Of a stretch of DNA of 64,000 bases, positions 2,317-64,000 are shown piece after piece (position 1 is the first letter of the stretch; each line of letters starts with the position of its first letter). The DNA comes from an archaeon. Lineage in GTDB: Archaea > Methanobacteriota_B > Thermococci > Methanofastidiosales > NM3. The stretch spans positions 31,827 through 95,826 of the forward strand of contig RXIG01000008.1 of assembly GCA_004212155.1 (NCBI GenBank), written 5' to 3'. The position numbers were made by a program, and so were the translations under genes. Below the pieces are notes generated by a model that was not told the origin of the DNA, made no database searches, and saw only the letters and a list, made by a program, of their open reading frames with translations.

Positions 2317-3315
2317 TTAGAACCACTGATCGAGCGTCTCTTGTTTGATGACGCTCTCGATTCCCTTTTCCAATCGTTCCAGGGCGCGTTCCACGCGTAT
2401 GTGTGAAAAGTCGCGCTTGTCGCAGAGGAACGACTCGATGCTGTCCGACTGTGGCGACGAGAACGAGAACTCGTAGTCGTCGGTGACCTTGGGCGAGAGG
2501 AAGAGGCCCTTTAGCGTCTCGTCGACGCCATACGATGAGAACGACCCTTCACGAACGACGTCAAGCGCCTTTTTCGGACCGATGCCCTTGACCCCGAGAT
2601 TGTAGTCGGTACCCACGAGCAGCGCGACCTCGACGAGCTGCTCGCGCGTGAGCGAGAGCGACTCGAGCACCGCGGCGAGCTCGACCTGTTCGGGAACGAC
2701 CTCGCGGTAGACGTTCTTGCCAGGCATCTTGCGCCGGCCCGAGATCGTGACGTTGCGGATCAGCATTGGCGCGCCGAAGAGCAGCGAATCGTAGTCCTGG
2801 GACGCAACTGCGAAGACGCGCTTGTCGGTGCTGCACATGTATGAGGCCTGCGCCTCGCCCTCGGATGGCGCATCGATGTAGGGGATGCCCATGAAGGTCA
2901 GCAGGTCCCGTGCCTCGGCGAGCATGTCAGAGGTGAAGGTAAGCATCTGCTGTGAATACTTGGCATAGTCCTCCTTCCTGCCCTCGACCTTCGCACGGAT
3001 GGCCTTCTTCTTGGCCTCGTCCTTGTGCTCTTTGCGTTCGCGCAGCGTGTCGATCTTCTCGCGCGGAGGCGTGCCGTCAAAGACGTATACGGGACGGATG
3101 CCCATCTCGAGCAGATTGATGGAACGATAAAAGAGACCGGAAAGATGTGACGTGGTGCGTCCCTGGGAATCCTTGAGCACCTCGCCGTCACGCTGGCGTA
3201 TGATGGCCAGGAACTGGTAGAGCGCATTGAGCGCATCCACCGCCAGCACCTTCCCATGGAGCGCCGCGAAGTCGATCTCGGTGCGCGGCACCACATCCTT
3301 GAGGTCGACGCCCAT
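2317..3315 (-). CDS. fen: Flap endonuclease FEN-1
   Basis: MGVDLKDVVPRTEIDF...VFDGTPP...YIDAPSEGEAQASYM...GTDYNLGVKGIGPKKAL; C-terminal PIP-like ETLDQWF. Confidence 0.95.
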   Translation of the reverse strand: MGVDLKDVVPRTEIDFAALHGKVLAVDALNALYQFLAIIRQRDGEVLKDSQGRTTSHLSGLFYRSINLLEMGIRPVYVFDGTPPREKIDTLRERKEHKDEAKKKAIRAKVEGRKEDYAKYSQQMLTFTSDMLAEARDLLTFMGIPYIDAPSEGEAQASYMCSTDKRVFAVASQDYDSLLFGAPMLIRNVTISGRRKMPGKNVYREVVPEQVELAAVLESLSLTREQLVEVALLVGTDYNLGVKGIGPKKALDVVREGSFSSYGVDETLKGLFLSPKVTDDYEFSFSSPQSDSIESFLCDKRDFSHIRVERALERLEKGIESVIKQETLDQWF

Positions 3316-3317
3316 GA

Positions 3318-3497
3318 TCACTCATCCGGGCGTACGACGGTAATGGGAAGGACACCCATTTCGAGCTCCTTGATCGCTACGCGAATGGAGTCGAAGTCGT
3401 CAGTATCAATGAGGATTGGCGCATCCATGGATATCTGCAGGGCCCGTGCGCCTATGACCCGTGCACGCTCGTATCTATTCAATCGTATAGGAATCAC
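3318..3497 (-). CDS. rpoK: DNA-directed RNA polymerase subunit K (GTG start), 59 aa
   Basis: Manual minus-strand translation: [59 protein letters not shown], the RpoK/Rpb6 core. Missed by the ORF track because of length. Confidence 0.85.
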
Positions 3498-3619
3498 CCG
3501 GTTTCGTACGTTCTCGGTAAACGATAAGATATAAGAACCTTAATAACGTTACGCATACTGTTTTTAATCATTTCGGTATCCTTGGGCCATTTCGCACCTT
3601 AAAAGCCTTGCGATGGCCG

Positions 3620-3708
3620 TGAAGTGTAGCCCCGGGGGCACATGATGAGGAGAGGCGGGGACATGCGATGACGCCTGTCCCCAATTGAGTAAAAAAACTA
3701 ATTTTTTT
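3620..3708 (+). ncRNA. Candidate small structured RNA
   Basis: GC-rich island in an AT-rich spacer; TATA-like CTTAAAAG about 25 nt upstream; GGGGACA/TGTCCCC inverted repeat; followed by a T7 run. Confidence 0.3.
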
Positions 3709-3716
3709 GCGAAGAA

Positions 3717-3788
3717 TCACTTCTTTTTTACGTTCTTCTGAGTTGCAGTCGTTTCTTTCTTCTTTTTAGGCGATGCCTTAGCTCCCAT
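3717..3788 (-). CDS. 23-aa lysine-rich peptide
   Basis: MGAKASPKKKKETTATQKNVKKK*; preceded by GGAGGTGTGTGC (strong SD) immediately upstream of ATG. Confidence 0.45.
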   Translation of the reverse strand: MGAKASPKKKKETTATQKNVKKK

Positions 3789-3971
3789 GCACACACCTCC
3801 AAATATTATAAGATTAATAACCTATATATAAACTTATCTATTGGTAAATTGCTATTAGAAAAAAAAATAATATTATTATATACTTATAATAAAAATATAA
3901 ATATTAAATAATAAAATAATTAATAAAAATAAATTAAAAAATAATTAATAAAAGAAAAATAAAGAAAAAGA

Positions 3972-5645
3972 TTAAAGCTCGTTGAATATCTTATCTTCAA
4001 GGAGCCTTATCTGTTCATCCACGTAGTCAAGCGTTTCCTTGTCCATGCGGGCAGCAAGCGTGTTGCGGCGGTCGACGATCTTCGAGTAGTTCGACACGGC
4101 ACCTTTCAGGTCCTTGCGTATCGTCTCTGGATCGTAGTGCGCCACTGCCTTGTCAAGACCGTCCACGAGCTTGGCGGCGTCAGGGTCGCTTGGCGTCGGC
4201 GCCGTGCGTCCGGGCGCTACCGGCGTCACGAGCGTTCGCTGTGCACCCTCGCCCCCCTCTGGAGGTCCTGGTGGCGGCACCGGTGCTGCCTCTCCGTAGA
4301 ACTCGGGTGGTGGTCCTTCCTCCTCCTCTTCTTCCCTGCGGCGGGCAAGGAGTATGATAAGGATTGCCAGGAGTAATAGCAACAGCAGCAACCCAAGGAA
4401 CCACGTCTGCATATACCACGGCGTCCCGTCGTCCTCTTCGCACGACTCGATGCGGTCATCGATCATCTGGACCATTGCATCGTCGTCGTAGCTGGCATAG
4501 ATCTCCCTGGCGTCCTGCCACTTGTTAATGGCGCTCTCGCAGTCGCCCTGGTCGGCAAAGGCATCGCCCTGTTCGACAAGCTCCTCTGCAAGGCCGTACT
4601 TGTCGCACTTTTCCAAGTAGAAGTCGCACTGGGCCACGCCGTCCTCGTCGCCGCACTGCTCATAGAGGGCCCGGGCTATCTCGAGCTGCGAGCGCGCTTC
4701 CTCGCAGTCCTCCTCGTAGACCTCCATGGCCGCCTCGAACGTCTCCTCTGCGAGCGTGCAGGGATCTTCTGCCTCGGCCACCGTGAAGGTGGTCTGTATG
4801 GAGTTATTGTCAATGTTCGAGTCGTACTGGTGCGGATTGAGGTACATCTTGGCGGTTAGGTCGCCAAGCCTGCTTGCGCCCCAAGAGAGCGTGACGGTCT
4901 GTGTGGAGTTCGGTTCGAACGACAACGTCGTCGAAGCGAGGTTGCCCTGTGCGATCTCCGGGATGTAGAAGCCGAGTATCTTGTCGGGCAGATTCACATC
5001 GCCGTCGACGGTCACGTCGACACTGACGTTGACCGTGTCGCCAAGCGCCGGCTCCTCGGGTGTGATGACAAGATTTGACAGTATCACGTCGTATGGTTCG
5101 AGCACGCGTACCGGAAGGGTCACAGACCTGTCGCCGATCGATGATGTTGCGGTGAACTGGATCTCGTAGAGGCCCGGAGCCTCGCCCTCGGGTACCGAGA
5201 CGTCGACGGTGACGGTCTCGCTGTCATTGCCCTCGAGTATGAGCCGGTCCTCAGAGAGCGTCACGTCCCATTCTGGCGGGCCCATGACGCTGAGATAAAT
5301 GTTGTTCACGTTCGCCATCTTGAACGAGCTCGCGCTGCCGGTACCTGGCATGCCCATGCCCCCGCCTGTGACGAAAGAAGACTCACTTGGCGGAGATGGG
5401 GGGGGTGGTGGAGTTTCCGTTGGTGGAGATGGCGATGTGGTGGGGGAAGGTGTAGTCGTAGGTTCACCCGTACTGCTCGTGAGCACGGTTACGTCTATGC
5501 TTGTGGAGTACCCTGCATAGACCTGGGCCTCTTCCCCGCTCCACTGTATATATACCTGGAGGTCGGCACCTGCCACCATCGCCCCCGAGAGGAGGACGAT
5601 GAGGACCAGTGCCGCTCCACAGACAGACCGACGCATCAGGTTCAC
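3972..5645 (-). CDS. Secreted, membrane-anchored protein with CARDB/Ig-like domains and acidic cytoplasmic tail
   Basis: Signal peptide RRSVCGAALVLIVLLSGAMVAG; Ser/Thr/Pro linker; VTLSEDRLILEGNDSETVTVDVSVP; TM WFLGLLLLLLLLAILIILLARRREEEEEEG; helical C-terminus. Confidence 0.8.
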   Translation of the reverse strand: MNLMRRSVCGAALVLIVLLSGAMVAGADLQVYIQWSGEEAQVYAGYSTSIDVTVLTSSTGEPTTTPSPTTSPSPPTETPPPPPSPPSESSFVTGGGMGMPGTGSASSFKMANVNNIYLSVMGPPEWDVTLSEDRLILEGNDSETVTVDVSVPEGEAPGLYEIQFTATSSIGDRSVTLPVRVLEPYDVILSNLVITPEEPALGDTVNVSVDVTVDGDVNLPDKILGFYIPEIAQGNLASTTLSFEPNSTQTVTLSWGASRLGDLTAKMYLNPHQYDSNIDNNSIQTTFTVAEAEDPCTLAEETFEAAMEVYEEDCEEARSQLEIARALYEQCGDEDGVAQCDFYLEKCDKYGLAEELVEQGDAFADQGDCESAINKWQDAREIYASYDDDAMVQMIDDRIESCEEDDGTPWYMQTWFLGLLLLLLLLAILIILLARRREEEEEEGPPPEFYGEAAPVPPPGPPEGGEGAQRTLVTPVAPGRTAPTPSDPDAAKLVDGLDKAVAHYDPETIRKDLKGAVSNYSKIVDRRNTLAARMDKETLDYVDEQIRLLEDKIFNEL

Positions 5646-5651
5646 CGTTGT

Positions 5652-8600
5652 TTAGGAGATTGTGATTGTACAATCATCGTCGCAGTATATCCAGTATCCA
5701 TGCCATGGATTGAACTCATCAAATCCGCTTGCAAATCGCCCACGCGGGTCGTAGAGCTGTGCCTGGTTCGTTGGCGATCCAGCGACCTCGTCGGGGAGGT
5801 ACGTCCACATGAGGTTGACCGTTCCTGGCACTGAAGCATCCAATGCCGTTGCGATGTCGTTGTTTGCTGTCAGCAGGTTGTAGCCTATCAGGCTCCACTG
5901 GCCACCGGTGATGTCAATAGAGCGAGAGGTAGTACTCTCTTCTCCTACCACTGTAAGCTCTGCAAGCCCATTTAGTCGTATCCAGTAGCCGCGGTCATGT
6001 TCCGGATATTTCACGGTCGATGACTTTACGCTAGATGTGTCAGGGTAGTCGTAGTATTCGTAGTATTCGTCAGTGCCATTGTACTGAGCGATCTTGTCCC
6101 ATGTCGAGTAATCTATGCCACTCGCATAGAGCAGTGCGGGCCATGGCACGTCCTCTGGCACGAGCACGGGGAACGACATCATGTACCAGCCAGCCTCAGG
6201 GAACGTTAGGTCGGATGATGTGCCAGGTTCGAGTACTAGAGACACAGTATCTGAGTCGCCCACTTCTACCACGAACTCAGACGCATCCATTATCATGTCA
6301 GCGTCGTTATCCGAGGCACATGCAACATACGTTTCACCATCGCCATCCGTTGGGAGATTGGTAAACGTAGCAATACCTGAACCATTGGTTGCGGCCTCGC
6401 CAAAGTATTCGTATACTTGTGTTGATTCATTGAAGTGCCATATCGTCACTAGTGCCCCCACATATGAGCTCGCTGAATCATCAGTGACAGTGACCTCGAG
6501 ATCGCCAAATCCTGCAACGCTCATGTCAAGACTGATGTCCTGAGTTATGGTGTCTCCTGGATTAACAACCACGCCATTCACTACTTCTGTAACGAATCCT
6601 AACTTGCTGAATTCGAGATCGTAGGTAGCGTCCGGCAAGTCGTTGACGCTGTATGTACCATCACCAAGTGTGGAAGCGTAGTACTCGTCCGTTGTAGATG
6701 TATTTGTTGCTTTTACTGTTACACCCTGTATGGGGGTCGTACCGTCCATCTGCGTAACTGTACCATTTATGATACCAAGCGTAGAGGATGATTCATTGAT
6801 GGTAGCAGTTATGTAGTAACTATCCCAATCATCGTAATCGAGCGTTACCCATTTGGTGGTTACATCGTAGCCCGTCTTGGAGAACTTGACGAACCAGGTA
6901 CCAAGGGGTACGCCCGTTTCATTGTCGTCGTTATCTCCGTCGTAGTTAAGGTCAGCATGCTCCCATCCAGATGTGTCCCAGTTGCCGCTACTATCAGTCT
7001 GTGTAGTGAACCGTGGCGTAGAGAAGTCATCTGGAGAGAACCATTCTACGTCCGCACCTTGAACTGGATTGGAGCCGTCATCTACACTACCTGTGACATT
7101 TACGAAGTAGCGTGACATCGGTATGTCCTGTTCGATGATGTCGCCCTCAGAGATGACGATCGGGTCCTCAATCTGCCAGTCTTGGTACTCTGGTAGTTCA
7201 GTGCCATCCACGATCTGAACACACTGGAGCGTGTACGTTCCAACAGGCAGGCTTGGCACCGAGTAGAACCCGGTATCATCGGTGAATGCCTCGAACGTGC
7301 CTACGCCATTCTTAACAGCGATGATCTTGGCGTTGATGACCTTGTCGCCCGCATCCTTGACACCATTTCCATTCACGTCCTCGAAGACGTATCCGCTTAT
7401 GGTGTTCGTGAGCTTGTTGAGCGAGTAGTTCATGGTGTTGAGGCCAAGCTCGACGGTCGTGTATTCCTCGTGAGACTCGTACCCGGCAGCGTTTACCTCT
7501 ACGAGGTAGGTCTCATCAGCAGTGAGGCCCTCGAGTATGTAGAATCCGAAGCTATCGGTGTCTTCGGAAACACTGTCAGCGGTCACACTGGCATTGACGA
7601 TACCCTCCGTCTTGGGCACGGAGGCATCGACATCATAGTCATTCTCGCCATCTGCATCGAAATATACTTCCCCATAAAGATATGCAGAAGTATAAGATGT
7701 CGTCTTGTAGAGTGGGAAGTCGATCCACTGGCCACTGCCCTCCACCATGGGTAGATTCCTCTGTATGCCTGGCTCGTATATTCCTTCATCTGCGAGATCG
7801 CCCGCCACGATGGTCATCTTCGTCGTCGAGCTGTTTATCTGTGAAGACACTTCGTTGATAATATAGTATCCAGTTGAATCGGTCTCGGCCTTGAGCCCCG
7901 CGGATGCCACATCGTTGTTGACACCTGAGCCGGGGATATAGACCGGCATGTCAGGGATGCGCTCGTTCTCATCGACGACGCCGTTGTTGTTCATGTCCCA
8001 GAAGGCGATACCCTCTATCCATGAGTCATACGGTGTCGATGGTGTCGATGGAAGCTCGATCATGACCTGTGTGTTTGTCGCTTGGTCCCGTGCCACCGTC
8101 ATGGTGTACTGCTGCGGCGTGGTACCAGTGATCTCTTCCTTTGCGGTCACATGGTAGGTCCTGCCGCCATCGTTTGGCACATCCATGAAGACGAAGTTGT
8201 AATCATCTCCATTTATGTCGTTGTTGGTGGAGCTAGAGCTATAAACTGTGCGACCAAGTCCGGGGATTGATACCTCGACATTTTCAACTTCCTCGCCTGG
8301 CTGATAAGCTGGGTCACTATTATTGTTTCGCCAAACGATACCGTAAAGGTTGTTGTCAGGCATCGTTGTCTCGTCCCAGAGCGCGAAGTGTTCGGTGACT
8401 ATCGCCCTGCCTGGGACGACCACATCGTAGCGCTCCTTGGTCACATAATCGGTGGTATTCGGCTCCATGGGTGCCTGGAGCGTGTAGGTGCCACGGTTGG
8501 CCACGAGTACGTACCATCCGTTGCTGTCGGTAACACCCGTTTCCTCATTGGATGGGATATCGTCGTCCATGGCTAGCACTTCTATTCCCTCGATGCCATC

Positions 8601-60029: not shown

Positions 60030-60488
60030 ATGGACGATTTGGATAAACAAATCCTTAACATCCTTCAGGACAACGACAAGACCCCGTACTACGAGATAGG
60101 AAAGCGTCTTGGTGTAGGTTCGACAACGGTTCATTCCCGCGTGAAGAAACTGGTGGAGAACGGGACCATTAAACGGTTCGCCGCCATCGTGGACCCAAAG
60201 CTTGTAGGATATACCGCATGCAAGATGGTCGGCCTCACGGTCCAACCGGATAAGATTGAGGAAGTTGCAGAAAAGATTTCAAAGTTTGACGAGGTCACAA
60301 TGATCGGCACAACGGGTGGCGACCACGACATCGTCATGGAGGTCATAGGGCCGGACGAACGGGCGATTGGACGATTCATAAACGAAAAGATAAAGACGGT
60401 CGAAGGTGTGAAGTCAGGCATCGGCATGATCCATGTCTCGACCTTCACTGAGATCTACAAGCACAATCACAAGATCGTCTTTTACTAA
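60030..60488 (+). CDS. Lrp/AsnC-family transcriptional regulator
   Basis: LDKQILNILQDNDKTPYYEIGKRLGVGSTTVHSRVKKLVENGTIKRFAAIVDPKLVGYTACKMVGLTV. Confidence 0.95.
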   Translation: MDDLDKQILNILQDNDKTPYYEIGKRLGVGSTTVHSRVKKLVENGTIKRFAAIVDPKLVGYTACKMVGLTVQPDKIEEVAEKISKFDEVTMIGTTGGDHDIVMEVIGPDERAIGRFINEKIKTVEGVKSGIGMIHVSTFTEIYKHNHKIVFY

Positions 60489-61063
60489 TCCTTTCGGACC
60501 GCTTTCACGGCCGCTACGATCCTTTTTCCCAGATTGCGGGCATTTTCTCGCGTGCCCTCGTCATTTTTTGCATCATCCTTCTTCTGGGCATAGACCATGA
60601 GGCCAAGGCCGGGAACGCCCCCAAGGCCGACGACCATCATCTTGTTGGTAAGCATGAATCCGTCAAGCGAGGCGAGCGTGTTGAAGTGGCCCCACTTCCA
60701 TGCAACGGCCACGGATGCGCCAACCTTGTTCTCAAGAGACTTTCCCTGCCGCCATATGACGCGTTCGCGGTCGATGAGCGCCTTGACCTGAGAGGGCACG
60801 TTGCCAAAGTAGACGGGGGCTCCCATGACGATGCCATCGGCAGCAAGCATTTTGTCGTATATGCCCTGTACGTCGTCGTCATGCTTGCAGCGTTTGTTCT
60901 CGGCGCAAAACTCACATGCCTCGCATGGATAGATCGTCTTTCCTGCGATGCTGATAAGCTCGATATCCGCCCCTTCCGCCTCAGCGGAACGAAGCACCTC
61001 TTCGAGGACGAAGTCGGTATTTCCGCCCCTGCGGGGACTACCTGATATGCCTAGTATCTTCAT
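60485..61063 (-). CDS. NADPH-dependent FMN reductase / flavodoxin-like iron-sulfur flavoprotein family
   Basis: MKILGISGSPRRGGNTDFVLEEVLRSAE...CEACEFCAENKRCKHDDDVQGIYDKMLAADGIVMGAPVYFGNVPSQVKALIDR. Confidence 0.93.
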   Translation of the reverse strand: MKILGISGSPRRGGNTDFVLEEVLRSAEAEGADIELISIAGKTIYPCEACEFCAENKRCKHDDDVQGIYDKMLAADGIVMGAPVYFGNVPSQVKALIDRERVIWRQGKSLENKVGASVAVAWKWGHFNTLASLDGFMLTNKMMVVGLGGVPGLGLMVYAQKKDDAKNDEGTRENARNLGKRIVAAVKAVRKD

Positions 61064-61595
61064 TTGATCACCATGATAGCTTCCTGACGAGGCTATAAAT
61101 ACGTTTTTGTGAAAAATACGACGAAGAATCACAATGAGGCGGTATCGTGCTTTAGCGTTGCCCATATGCCGTGATTAGAGCCATGCAAGGGCACCAAAGT
61201 AACATGAAGCGCGCCTGTTTTTGTGACGATCTCAATCAAGATGCATCCCAAAGACAGAGGCATGACATGCGCTATCGCAGGCAGCATGGTACGGAGGATT
61301 CATTCTTGGGGGAACATTCTAAATTTCATATGGAGCCACATTGGAAGAGACTGGTCGCCGTTCAGTGTTATCTGCAAAGGCATCCTCTCTCTGTTGAAGT
61401 GACAACACCCTGAAAATCACGGCCGCAATGTCTTCGGGAAACAATGTTCTGTTGAGAGCAAATATTATACACATAAGAACTATTTATGTCTTATTGTATT
61501 ATATAAATTATTAATATGTCTTATTAGACATTATAATAACTCTTTAAGGAATACATTTATATATCGTTTCATGCTAGAAAAGCTAGGTGTAACTT

Positions 61596-62807
61596 ATGGA
61601 CAAGATAAAAGCATGTCTTGCATTGATACTGGCACTAAGCATCGTAACGGCCGGATGCATAGGTGGTGGGGACGAGACAGAGACCCCGGGACCAACCCCT
61701 GTACAGATCGTCTATATGTCCGGAGTTGGCACGATGCCATCTGCCCTTTCAAATGGGGAGGTCAATGCGTATATCGCTTGGCAGCCCATGGTGGCCGTGG
61801 CCGACGTGGGAAACATCGGGAAGGTCATCACCTATTCTCAGGACCTTCCGCCCGAGGGCGAATGGGAAAATCATCCATGTTGTGCTCTTGTGACGACCAA
61901 CTCGTTTGCCGAGCAAAGGCCCCGCATGGCGCAATACCTCACCATGCTCATGATAAACGCGACCAACTACATCAATGAATACCCAACGGAGACGGCACAC
62001 ATCTGTGCTGACTGGTTATTCGGTGGCGAGGAACTGACATATGGCCCCGTGACCGTGGACTCGTATGAGGTGGAGGAAGCATCGATCCCCACCATCAAGT
62101 TCATCACCGAGCCGACGGAGAAATGGAAGGATGATGTGGTGAAGTTCGTCCATGCTGAGGAGGAGATAGGCCTCGTGAACGATGTACTCGTGGGCAAGAC
62201 AGATGAGGAGATAAAGGACCACATCTTCAATCAAGATATATACGCTGCGGCGATCGCCTCGCTCGACTCTGGAGACTATATGTCAGATGAAGCACCCGCT
62301 AATGTTCCCACCATCGACTTCGGATACCTGCCATCCGACCACGACGCAGCACTCTTTGTTGCTGCAGAGAACTGGGAATACTTCAGGGACAACTACGGCA
62401 TCTACCTCTCTCCGGTGAACGCGGGCCCTAATGGAACGTACAACCTCGTCATCGACGGCACGACCATGGCACGCATAAATCTCATCGAGTTCTCCGCAGG
62501 TTCTGCGGCGATGACGGCGGCCAGCCAGGGAAACATCGATTACAGCATCATCGGTGTCCCGCCGGCAATACTCTTCATCGACCAGGGTGCGCCGGTACAG
62601 ATCGTATCCCCACTCCAAACGGAAGGGTCCGGTGTCGTCGTCTCAAACGACGCATCCTATGACGACTGGGATGGATTCGTCGAGTGGATAAAGGAGCAGC
62701 AGGCAGACGGCAAGACGGTCAAGATCGGCGACCCGATGCTGGGCTCGATCCAAGACGTCATGCTCAAGCGAGCGCTCAAGGAAGAAGGTATACCTTACGT
62801 GGAGTGA
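61596..62807 (+). CDS. Lipoprotein substrate-binding protein (SsuA/NMT1-like), apparently circularly permuted
   Basis: Lipobox LALILALSIVTAGC; first half VQIVYMSGVGTMPSALSNGEVNAYIAWQPMV...HPCCALVTTNSFAEQRP...; second half from 62313 IDFGYLPSDHDAALFVAAENWEYF...IIGVPPAILFIDQGAPVQIVSPLQTEGSGVVV...GSIQDVMLKRALKEEGI. Confidence 0.85.
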   Translation: MDKIKACLALILALSIVTAGCIGGGDETETPGPTPVQIVYMSGVGTMPSALSNGEVNAYIAWQPMVAVADVGNIGKVITYSQDLPPEGEWENHPCCALVTTNSFAEQRPRMAQYLTMLMINATNYINEYPTETAHICADWLFGGEELTYGPVTVDSYEVEEASIPTIKFITEPTEKWKDDVVKFVHAEEEIGLVNDVLVGKTDEEIKDHIFNQDIYAAAIASLDSGDYMSDEAPANVPTIDFGYLPSDHDAALFVAAENWEYFRDNYGIYLSPVNAGPNGTYNLVIDGTTMARINLIEFSAGSAAMTAASQGNIDYSIIGVPPAILFIDQGAPVQIVSPLQTEGSGVVVSNDASYDDWDGFVEWIKEQQADGKTVKIGDPMLGSIQDVMLKRALKEEGIPYVE

Positions 62808-62829: not shown

Positions 62830-63351
62830 TCATTCCGAAAGCTTTTGAGCAGCCCGTGTGATGGCGTCTTCGAGAGCGAACTTCGGCATCATCGTGACAA
62901 CGGGAATCCTCACGAGCTTGTCGATGGTGGGTGATACGATGGGCGCGCAGACGATCGCATGGGCACCTCCTCGCTCTGCATTGACGGCAGCGAGGATGGC
63001 ATCCTCCATCGTGACTGCGGAAAACTCCCTGACGACGTATTCCTTTCCATCGACCTCTATGGACTTTCGAGGTATGGTCGAGAGGACCGTGCGCGCGGCG
63101 ATGACGGCGATGAACGGTTTGTCTGTGACGCCTTCGAGCCGCTTGAGCGCCTGCAGGATATCGCGCACCGCCCTGAGCGTGGGTTCCCTGTTCCCATCGA
63201 CGATCTTGTAGAGCGTGCTCTTGGGGATGCCGGAATAATCGGCAAAGCTTGATATCGACATATGCTGTTCACTATATATCGTGTGTTTGAGGGCATCGAT
63301 GAATCGCTCGTGCGAGATGGAGATTGCAGAAAGTACGTCCGAATATGTCAT
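62830..63351 (-). CDS. XRE-type HTH regulator with C-terminal ligand-binding-like domain
   Basis: HMSISSFADYSGIPKSTLYKIVDGNREPTLRAVRDILQALKRLEG; C-terminal AILAAVNAERGGAHAIVCAPIVSPTIDKLVRIPVVTM. Confidence 0.85.
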   Translation of the reverse strand: MTYSDVLSAISISHERFIDALKHTIYSEQHMSISSFADYSGIPKSTLYKIVDGNREPTLRAVRDILQALKRLEGVTDKPFIAVIAARTVLSTIPRKSIEVDGKEYVVREFSAVTMEDAILAAVNAERGGAHAIVCAPIVSPTIDKLVRIPVVTMMPKFALEDAITRAAQKLSE

Positions 63352-63551
63352 AAATATTACCTAATACGCCTTCTAGTGTATAATATTTATACTTTTGTAT
63401 AAATAATTTGGCGTCATCCAAAAAAAAGAAGAAAAATTTATAAATTAGCCTACCAGCTTATGCTGTAAGTCTCTGAGGACACGCCTACCCATCAATTGGT
63501 AGAAGAGGACGATGGCAATGAACTTCGTCTTTACCATCAGAGGTGCACATC

Positions 63552-64000
63552 GTGAAGAAAAGAATCATCAAGGTATTACTTCCCATCGCCATCATCATAG
63601 GATGGGAGCTCATCTCCTTAACGATAGACAATCAATGGAAACTCCCGTTGCTCGAGAGCATCGTCTCGATCCTTGCAGACCCCACGAAACGGCTTCTGGG
63701 AACGGGATCGCTCATTGAGAACACCTACTTCTCCCTCAAACGGGTGTTTCTAGGATTCGCCCTCGCATCGGGCATCGGCATACCCCTGGGCATAGGCATG
63801 GGGTGGTGGACCAGGATAGGCGACGTCTTCGACTATACCATCGAGGTGCTCAGACCCATTCCCCCCCTGGCATGGATACCACTCATACTGGCCTGGTTCG
63901 GGCTGGGGCTGCGCTCTTCCATCATCATCATATTCATAGGTGCGTTCTTCCCCATCCTCGTCAATACGATAGAGGGCGTCAAGAACGTGAACAGCGGACT
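63552..64000 (+). CDS. ABC transporter permease (SsuC/TauC family), truncated at right edge
   Basis: Manual translation from GTG: MKKRIIKVLLPIAIIIGWELIS...YFSLKRVFLGFALASGIGIPLGIGMGWWTRIGDVFDYTIEVLRPIPPLAWIPLILAWFGLGLRSSIIIIFIGAFFPILVNTIEGVKNVNSG. Confidence 0.92.
   Translation, partial: MKKRIIKVLLPIAIIIGWELISLTIDNQWKLPLLESIVSILADPTKRLLGTGSLIENTYFSLKRVFLGFALASGIGIPLGIGMGWWTRIGDVFDYTIEVLRPIPPLAWIPLILAWFGLGLRSSIIIIFIGAFFPILVNTIEGVKNVNSG

Follow-up and report, generated by a model that had tools for sequence, protein, structure and literature searches.

The 64,000-nucleotide stretch of DNA analysed here (hereafter the window), which comes from a methane-producing archaeon, ends shortly after a gene for a substrate-binding lipoprotein, P0001 (61596..62807, + strand; an intact open reading frame of 403 aa). 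An earlier note, made from the sequence alone, held that the two halves of this protein stand in the opposite order to that of canonical SsuA/NMT1-type binding proteins. This raises the questions of whether the gene is a true natural circular permutation, how a rotated order of this kind could arise, and what the protein binds. With a probability of about 0.86, we read P0001 as a permuted, lipid-anchored importer subunit of the SsuA type, which most likely binds a sulfonate and represents one of at least four permuted classes that have arisen repeatedly.

Order of the halves in the window protein

P0001 begins with a signal peptide (61596..61658, + strand), recognised from its sequence and present as helix 2-21 in the AlphaFold model. 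As described in the earlier note, the lipobox (TAGC, with Cys21 the putative site of the lipid anchor) precedes the swapped halves, and G20 and C21 are invariant in alignment A1 of the proteins that share the breakpoint of the window gene (class A, see below). The N-terminal part of the mature protein is the canonical second half (61701..62189, + strand; positions 141-284 of a 288-position model), including AYIAW.P and HPCC motifs that are invariant in alignments A1 and A3. This is followed by the former C-terminal tail and a linker from the old C-terminus to the old N-terminus (62190..62309, + strand), a segment that aligns to the C-terminal tail of the canonical homologues L006 and L045 and continues unbroken into the first strand. 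The canonical first half (62310..62801, + strand; positions 7-138 of the model) comes last and terminates just past the helix IQDVMLKRALKEEGI; the motif IDFGYLPSDHD indeed starts at base 62313, where the earlier note had placed the beginning of this half.

Profile comparisons show how the two halves relate to the canonical protein. The sole Pfam family in P0001 is PF13379 (NMT1_2), which scores 108.2 bits against a cut-off of 24.7 and is matched in two stretches, the best stretch listed taking residues 36-141 to profile positions 154-251; in the orthologue L003, residues 227-392 correspond to positions 3-149. A second profile, built from canonical archaeal homologues alone, wraps round in the same manner, with residues 37-202 and 237-402 in stop-to-stop open reading frame numbering (P0001 residues 36-201 and 236-401) matching positions 192-338 and 55-188, respectively. 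Because the first stretch maps to the second half of the profile and the second stretch to its first half, the order in P0001 is reversed. The collinear N-to-C order of the SsuA/NMT1_2 profile is recovered only when P0001 is rotated in silico: joining the C-terminus to the mature N-terminus, as had been suggested, yields a single collinear match (hmm 58-338, E 1.1e-60, 199 bits), and all 200 shuffled P0001 controls stayed below 2 bits against the canonical profile. The possibility of two partial copies of one lobe was ruled out, as the two stretches cover different halves of the profile. The halves of P0001 are in reversed order, each lobe is present once, nothing large has been lost and the old termini are joined; these observations show that P0001 is a naturally occurring, circularly permuted SsuA/NMT1_2-type protein.

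Predicted structures agree with this assignment. The AlphaFold model of P0001, built with 11 homologues, is confident (pLDDT 88.3, pTM 0.84), as is that of the canonical homologue L045 folded likewise (pLDDT 91.9). Foldseek depends on sequence order, so that its failure with P0001 is informative only beside this canonical control: no PDB entry matched the P0001 model under E 1e-3 (TM at most 0.31), whereas the L045 model matched E. coli SsuA 2x26 (TM 0.84, E 8e-19) and, taken together with it, Xanthomonas SsuA (TM 0.81-0.84, E about 1e-18). A fold recognised in canonical order and missed when rotated is as expected for a circular permutation. Searching PDB at the sequence level with P0001 returned weak matches to its C-terminal half only (3un6, E 0.066). 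In the models, the secondary structure elements of P0001 follow one another as they would in L045 if it were opened in the loop between helix 115-127 and strand 133-136 and closed by the linker, and it is over 62310..62801 that the order wraps round relative to the control.

The old C-terminus is thus linked to the old N-terminus, and the new termini lie in the loop that separates a helix from the strand after it. Given this position of the new termini, the membrane anchor would attach to the two-lobed protein at another point, away from the site shared by both canonical ends, and P0001 would presumably still fold and bind its substrate in the manner of a Venus flytrap. A different arrangement is possible in L137 (3936-5123, - strand), a substrate-binding protein (SBP) of class B that ends in PGF, a hydrophobic stretch and RRR, resembling a PGF-CTERM sorting or anchoring tail; judged by this tail, L137 may be anchored at its C-terminus instead.

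Conservation and repeated origin of the rotated order

The contig, and with it the window, ends about 1.2 kb beyond the window gene, and the assembly is in 28 contigs with a completeness of about 90%. A fault of assembly or binning, in which two canonical genes, either adjacent or chimeric, were put together the wrong way round, is therefore conceivable. We regard the chance of this as negligible. A paralogue at 55% identity (L002), situated deep within another contig (C7) of the same genome, has the same permuted order, as do the orthologues L003, L004, L005 and L026 from independently assembled sister genomes. In addition, permuted genes occur on near-complete chromosomes (e.g., G184:C1, 2.18 Mb; G091:C1, 2.20 Mb; G222:C1, 2.08 Mb; G518:C1, 1.49 Mb), and the paralogue, the orthologues and these genes all retain the reading frame, signal peptide and breakpoint. 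Since the paralogue, the sister-genome orthologues and dozens of other archaea share one order, a misassembled junction is excluded.

Scanning GTDB contigs recovered the permuted form in records of Methanofastidiosia, Methanomicrobiales and Thermoplasmata (L035-L044), while the Bathyarchaeota match, L045, is in canonical order. Overall, permuted relatives span Methanofastidiosia, Halobacteriota and Thermoplasmatota. Among the matches listed, a permuted profile was near-full-length and collinear in about 60 of 394 genomes of the phylum to which the Methanomicrobiales matches belong and in about 17 of 390 genomes of the phylum of the Thermoplasmata matches. Matches were also found in 38 of 398 genomes of the phylum of L045, none of them permuted among those listed; genes that matched in two pieces there were all in canonical order. 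The central claim of the earlier note, that of a natural circular permutation, is thus upheld: the profile wraps round, orthologues have the same order, canonical homologues occur next to regulators and permeases of the same types, and the predicted structure, set against that of a canonical control, agrees. The arrangement, which the earlier note took to be unusual for an ABC binding protein, is no isolated case: several archaeal groups commonly carry SsuA-type proteins in permuted form, and these have arisen repeatedly.

Placed on the 288-position model, the breakpoints fall into four classes. Class A, that of the window, is cut at about 138/140; class B (L010, L016, L126 and L137) at about 98/101; class C, from Thermoplasmatota (e.g., L097, L105 and L146), at about 75/77; and class D, represented by L156 only, at about 175/186. 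Among the representatives that were read, the new N-terminus is always found in a loop that precedes a strand, and a linker connects the old termini; no large segment has been lost or duplicated.

A single ancient permutation, inherited or transferred and later modified by trimming of the ends and by some reversions to canonical order, could in principle explain this distribution. Class A has the same breakpoint in all three archaeal groups, as such an origin would predict, and class D is nested in class C, from which it follows that ends can shift within a permuted lineage. However, the classes are scattered across SBP trees built from de-permuted alignments, and the approximately unbiased (AU) test on the SBP tree rejects a single permuted clade (p about 1e-99) and also a single class-A clade (p 6e-4). 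The tree of the adjacent permease, which requires no de-permutation, shows equal scatter and likewise rejects a single permuted clade (AU test, p 6.5e-6). L126 and L137 fall with high support within otherwise canonical clades, L126 shares synteny at the nucleotide level with the canonical L144, and a return to the exact canonical order would itself be a further permutation. We therefore consider a single origin quite improbable. The fewest changes between canonical and permuted order on the tree number seven, of which the starred branches force at least three. Permutations of this protein have arisen several times independently in archaea, the number of events being uncertain given the weakness of some tree nodes.

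Rotation in place and candidate DNA-level routes

The genomes carrying L126 (permuted, class B) and L144 (canonical) have in common the regulator, SBP, permease, ATPase and upstream genes, which makes it possible to follow a rotation by nucleotide alignment. Positions 3003-3804 of L126, comprising the regulator, promoter and signal peptide, correspond to 3118-3923 of L144, and 4752-6366, comprising the stop codon, permease and ATPase, correspond to 4841-6461. Between these flanks, the two segments of the mature region are exchanged, with 3836-4437 of L126 aligning to 4216-4820 of L144 and 4469-4746 aligning to 3937-4214. Protein identities are 69% and 84% for the two segments and 59% for the signal peptides. 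In this pair, signal peptide and stop codon have stayed in place and only the mature region between them is rotated, and the permutations in this family probably came about through rotation of the mature coding region in this way.

The near-exact rotation in L126 and L144 fits a cut-and-paste event just as well as a tandem duplication followed by two in-frame deletions. The earlier note had read the order of the halves as a signature of the duplication route, with subsequent loss of both ends. That route is one candidate; among the SBP open reading frames examined, none had an N-C-N-C or otherwise partly duplicated form. Such forms are expected under one model of permutation but are no prerequisite for calling a permutation. 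Two open reading frames of 562 and 610 aa, considered as candidate duplicated intermediates, proved to be ordinary canonical haloarchaeal proteins with a spurious N-terminal extension.

Another potential source of a rotated gene is the union of halves from two different genes. Fission and fusion is one of the two standard models of circular permutation (PMC3320104), and for the type I binding protein TpMglB-2 another gene has been put forward as a possible source of the permuted part (PMC4990184). For the proteins described here, we judge such an origin very improbable and favour the rotation of one gene, because a single canonical orthologue, L144, is the nearest relative of both parts of L126, both flanks are conserved and split half-genes were not seen. 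It is also conceivable, albeit unlikely, that a specific recurring DNA process repeatedly rotates the SBP gene in archaea, for example by excising the mature segment as a circle and re-inserting it in a new register within an unchanged frame of signal peptide and stop codon, and that selection exploits this to shift the free termini, and with them the lipid anchor, from one lobe to the other.

Predicted function and relation to known systems

The genes around P0001 are consistent with a role in an ABC importer. The gene next but one encodes an ABC permease of the SsuC/SaoP type (63543..63998, + strand), truncated at the contig end, whose orthologue (L035:8083-8847) matches SaoP, NtrB, TauC and SsuC models; across the data set, a same-strand SsuC-type permease adjoins the SBP at 139 loci. 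Between P0001 and the permease lies a helix-turn-helix regulator (62830..63351, - strand; Pfam HTH_3) with a conserved C-terminal part, IVCAPIVS...IPVVTMMP. Regulators of this type adjoin canonical and permuted relatives alike, and a gene cluster of this regulator type is present at 72 SBP loci. In the window clade the regulator sits between the SBP and the permease, while in L039 and L006 it is upstream of the SBP, so the SBP appears to have changed sides relative to the regulator. Upstream of P0001 is an NADPH-dependent FMN reductase or iron-sulfur flavoprotein (60485..61165, - strand; PF03358, 116 bits). Similar flavoproteins occur close to the SBP in L003, L017, L108, L138 and L139, and a link between this protein and the transporter is uncertain.

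The best curated match of P0001 is TIGR01728 (SsuA_fam), at 65 bits against a cut-off of 163.5, a shortfall due in part to the inability of the model to follow the permutation; SaoX and TauA come next. P0001 is likely the lipid-anchored binding subunit of an SsuABC-type importer, which most likely binds a small sulfonate and hands it over to the adjacent permease. Our best guess for this sulfonate, held with moderate confidence, is coenzyme M or a precursor. Class-A (L114, L068), class-B (L137) and canonical (L180) members adjoin genes for cysteate synthase, sulfopyruvate decarboxylase or both, which are enzymes of coenzyme M biosynthesis. In the window orthologue L035, methanogenesis marker 2 is encoded downstream of the transporter genes. 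The window genome contains mcrA and a full-length homologue of methanogenesis marker 16 (coenzyme M synthase), and gave no match for sulfopyruvate decarboxylase; owing to the marker 16 homologue, import of finished coenzyme M is possibly not obligatory.

Two larger class-B genomes of about 3 Mb, G006 and G009, belong to family f3 of the order of the window genome. Families f1 and f4 of this order gave mcrA matches; f2 gave none, and neither did G006 and G009, which are apparently non-methanogenic. Coenzyme M for methanogenesis is thus not the substrate everywhere, and other sulfonates are likely imported in G006 and G009. A substrate other than a sulfonate, i.e., another small anion or molecule bound within the NMT1/THI5/TauA/NrtA superfamily, is a possibility to which we give roughly a one-in-three chance. 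Members of this superfamily bind nitrate, bicarbonate, thiamine precursors and taurine; besides the two genomes lacking mcrA matches, L002 and L026 are orphan binding proteins with no adjacent permease. A sulfonate is favoured instead by the ranking of the curated matches, by the coenzyme M biosynthesis genes beside several members and by the reported co-regulation in Methanosarcina acetivorans, in which ssuA and ssuC expression rises on coenzyme M starvation (PMC12068725).

Several other gene neighbourhoods were recorded. The orphan permuted copies L002 (G000:C7) and L026 (G002:C47), for which no permease gene was found in the stretch read, lie beside a CDC48-type ATPase and an iron-sulfur protein, respectively. 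In L114, a canonical SsuA-like protein with no obvious signal peptide (3020-3925, + strand) is encoded directly upstream of the permuted SBP, so that its gene sits between the latter and sulfopyruvate decarboxylase. Genes for RamA-type corrinoid activases are found near permuted SBPs in L129, L131, L132, L146, L154, L155 and L156, and for an MtrH-like methyltransferase in L120, L129, L131 and L132, which suggests a link to methyl-compound metabolism in those lineages.

Among characterized systems, P0001 is closest to SsuA/TauA (TIGR01728, PF13379; E. coli SsuA 2x26), with which it shares the family profile in both halves and an SsuBC-like transporter context, and on whose E. coli member the canonical archaeal homologue superposes (TM 0.84). 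It differs from these proteins in its swapped halves, in the placement of its termini and lipid anchor on the fold, in its sub-cut-off score and in an additional beta-hairpin insert found in the window clade. SaoX (NF040735) is the second-best curated model for the C-terminal half, and the permease orthologue scores with SaoP, but P0001 reaches only 44.3 bits against a cut-off of 300. The coenzyme M-specific SsuABC of M. acetivorans (PMC12068725) ties an SsuA-type binding protein to coenzyme M metabolism. A published circular permutation is TpMglB-2 (Tp0684) of Treponema pallidum, a "Type Ic" binding protein, which is also tethered, ABC transporter-associated and conserved in relatives, and for which tethering was proposed as a possible reason for the permutation (PMC4990184). 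That protein has a bacterial type I sugar-binding fold, a family to which the NMT1_2/SsuA-type P0001 does not belong, and one breakpoint, as opposed to the four breakpoints and repeated origins of the archaeal SsuA-type proteins. Permutation relations among ABC binding proteins have also been detected for glycine betaine-binding proteins by CPSARST (PMC2395249); those were drawn from solved structures of deeply diverged proteins, whereas the orthologues compared here occupy equivalent operon positions and can be aligned even as nucleotides. A literature search on circular permutation and SsuA found no permuted SsuA-type protein described, though most subscription papers lay outside its scope and an earlier description is possible.

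The significance of this family lies first in how permutations originate. Natural circular permutations are usually met between deeply diverged proteins, in which the route is no longer readable. In this family, canonical and rotated versions of a single orthologous operon are available at about 70-84% identity, alongside further independent rotations with other breakpoints, so the debate between duplication-and-trimming, fission-and-fusion and cut-and-paste becomes testable by denser sampling. Secondly, permuted proteins are missed or under-scored by collinear profiles and by fold searches that depend on sequence order, so that annotation is likely to be poor for these importers, which possibly take up coenzyme M, in many methanogens.
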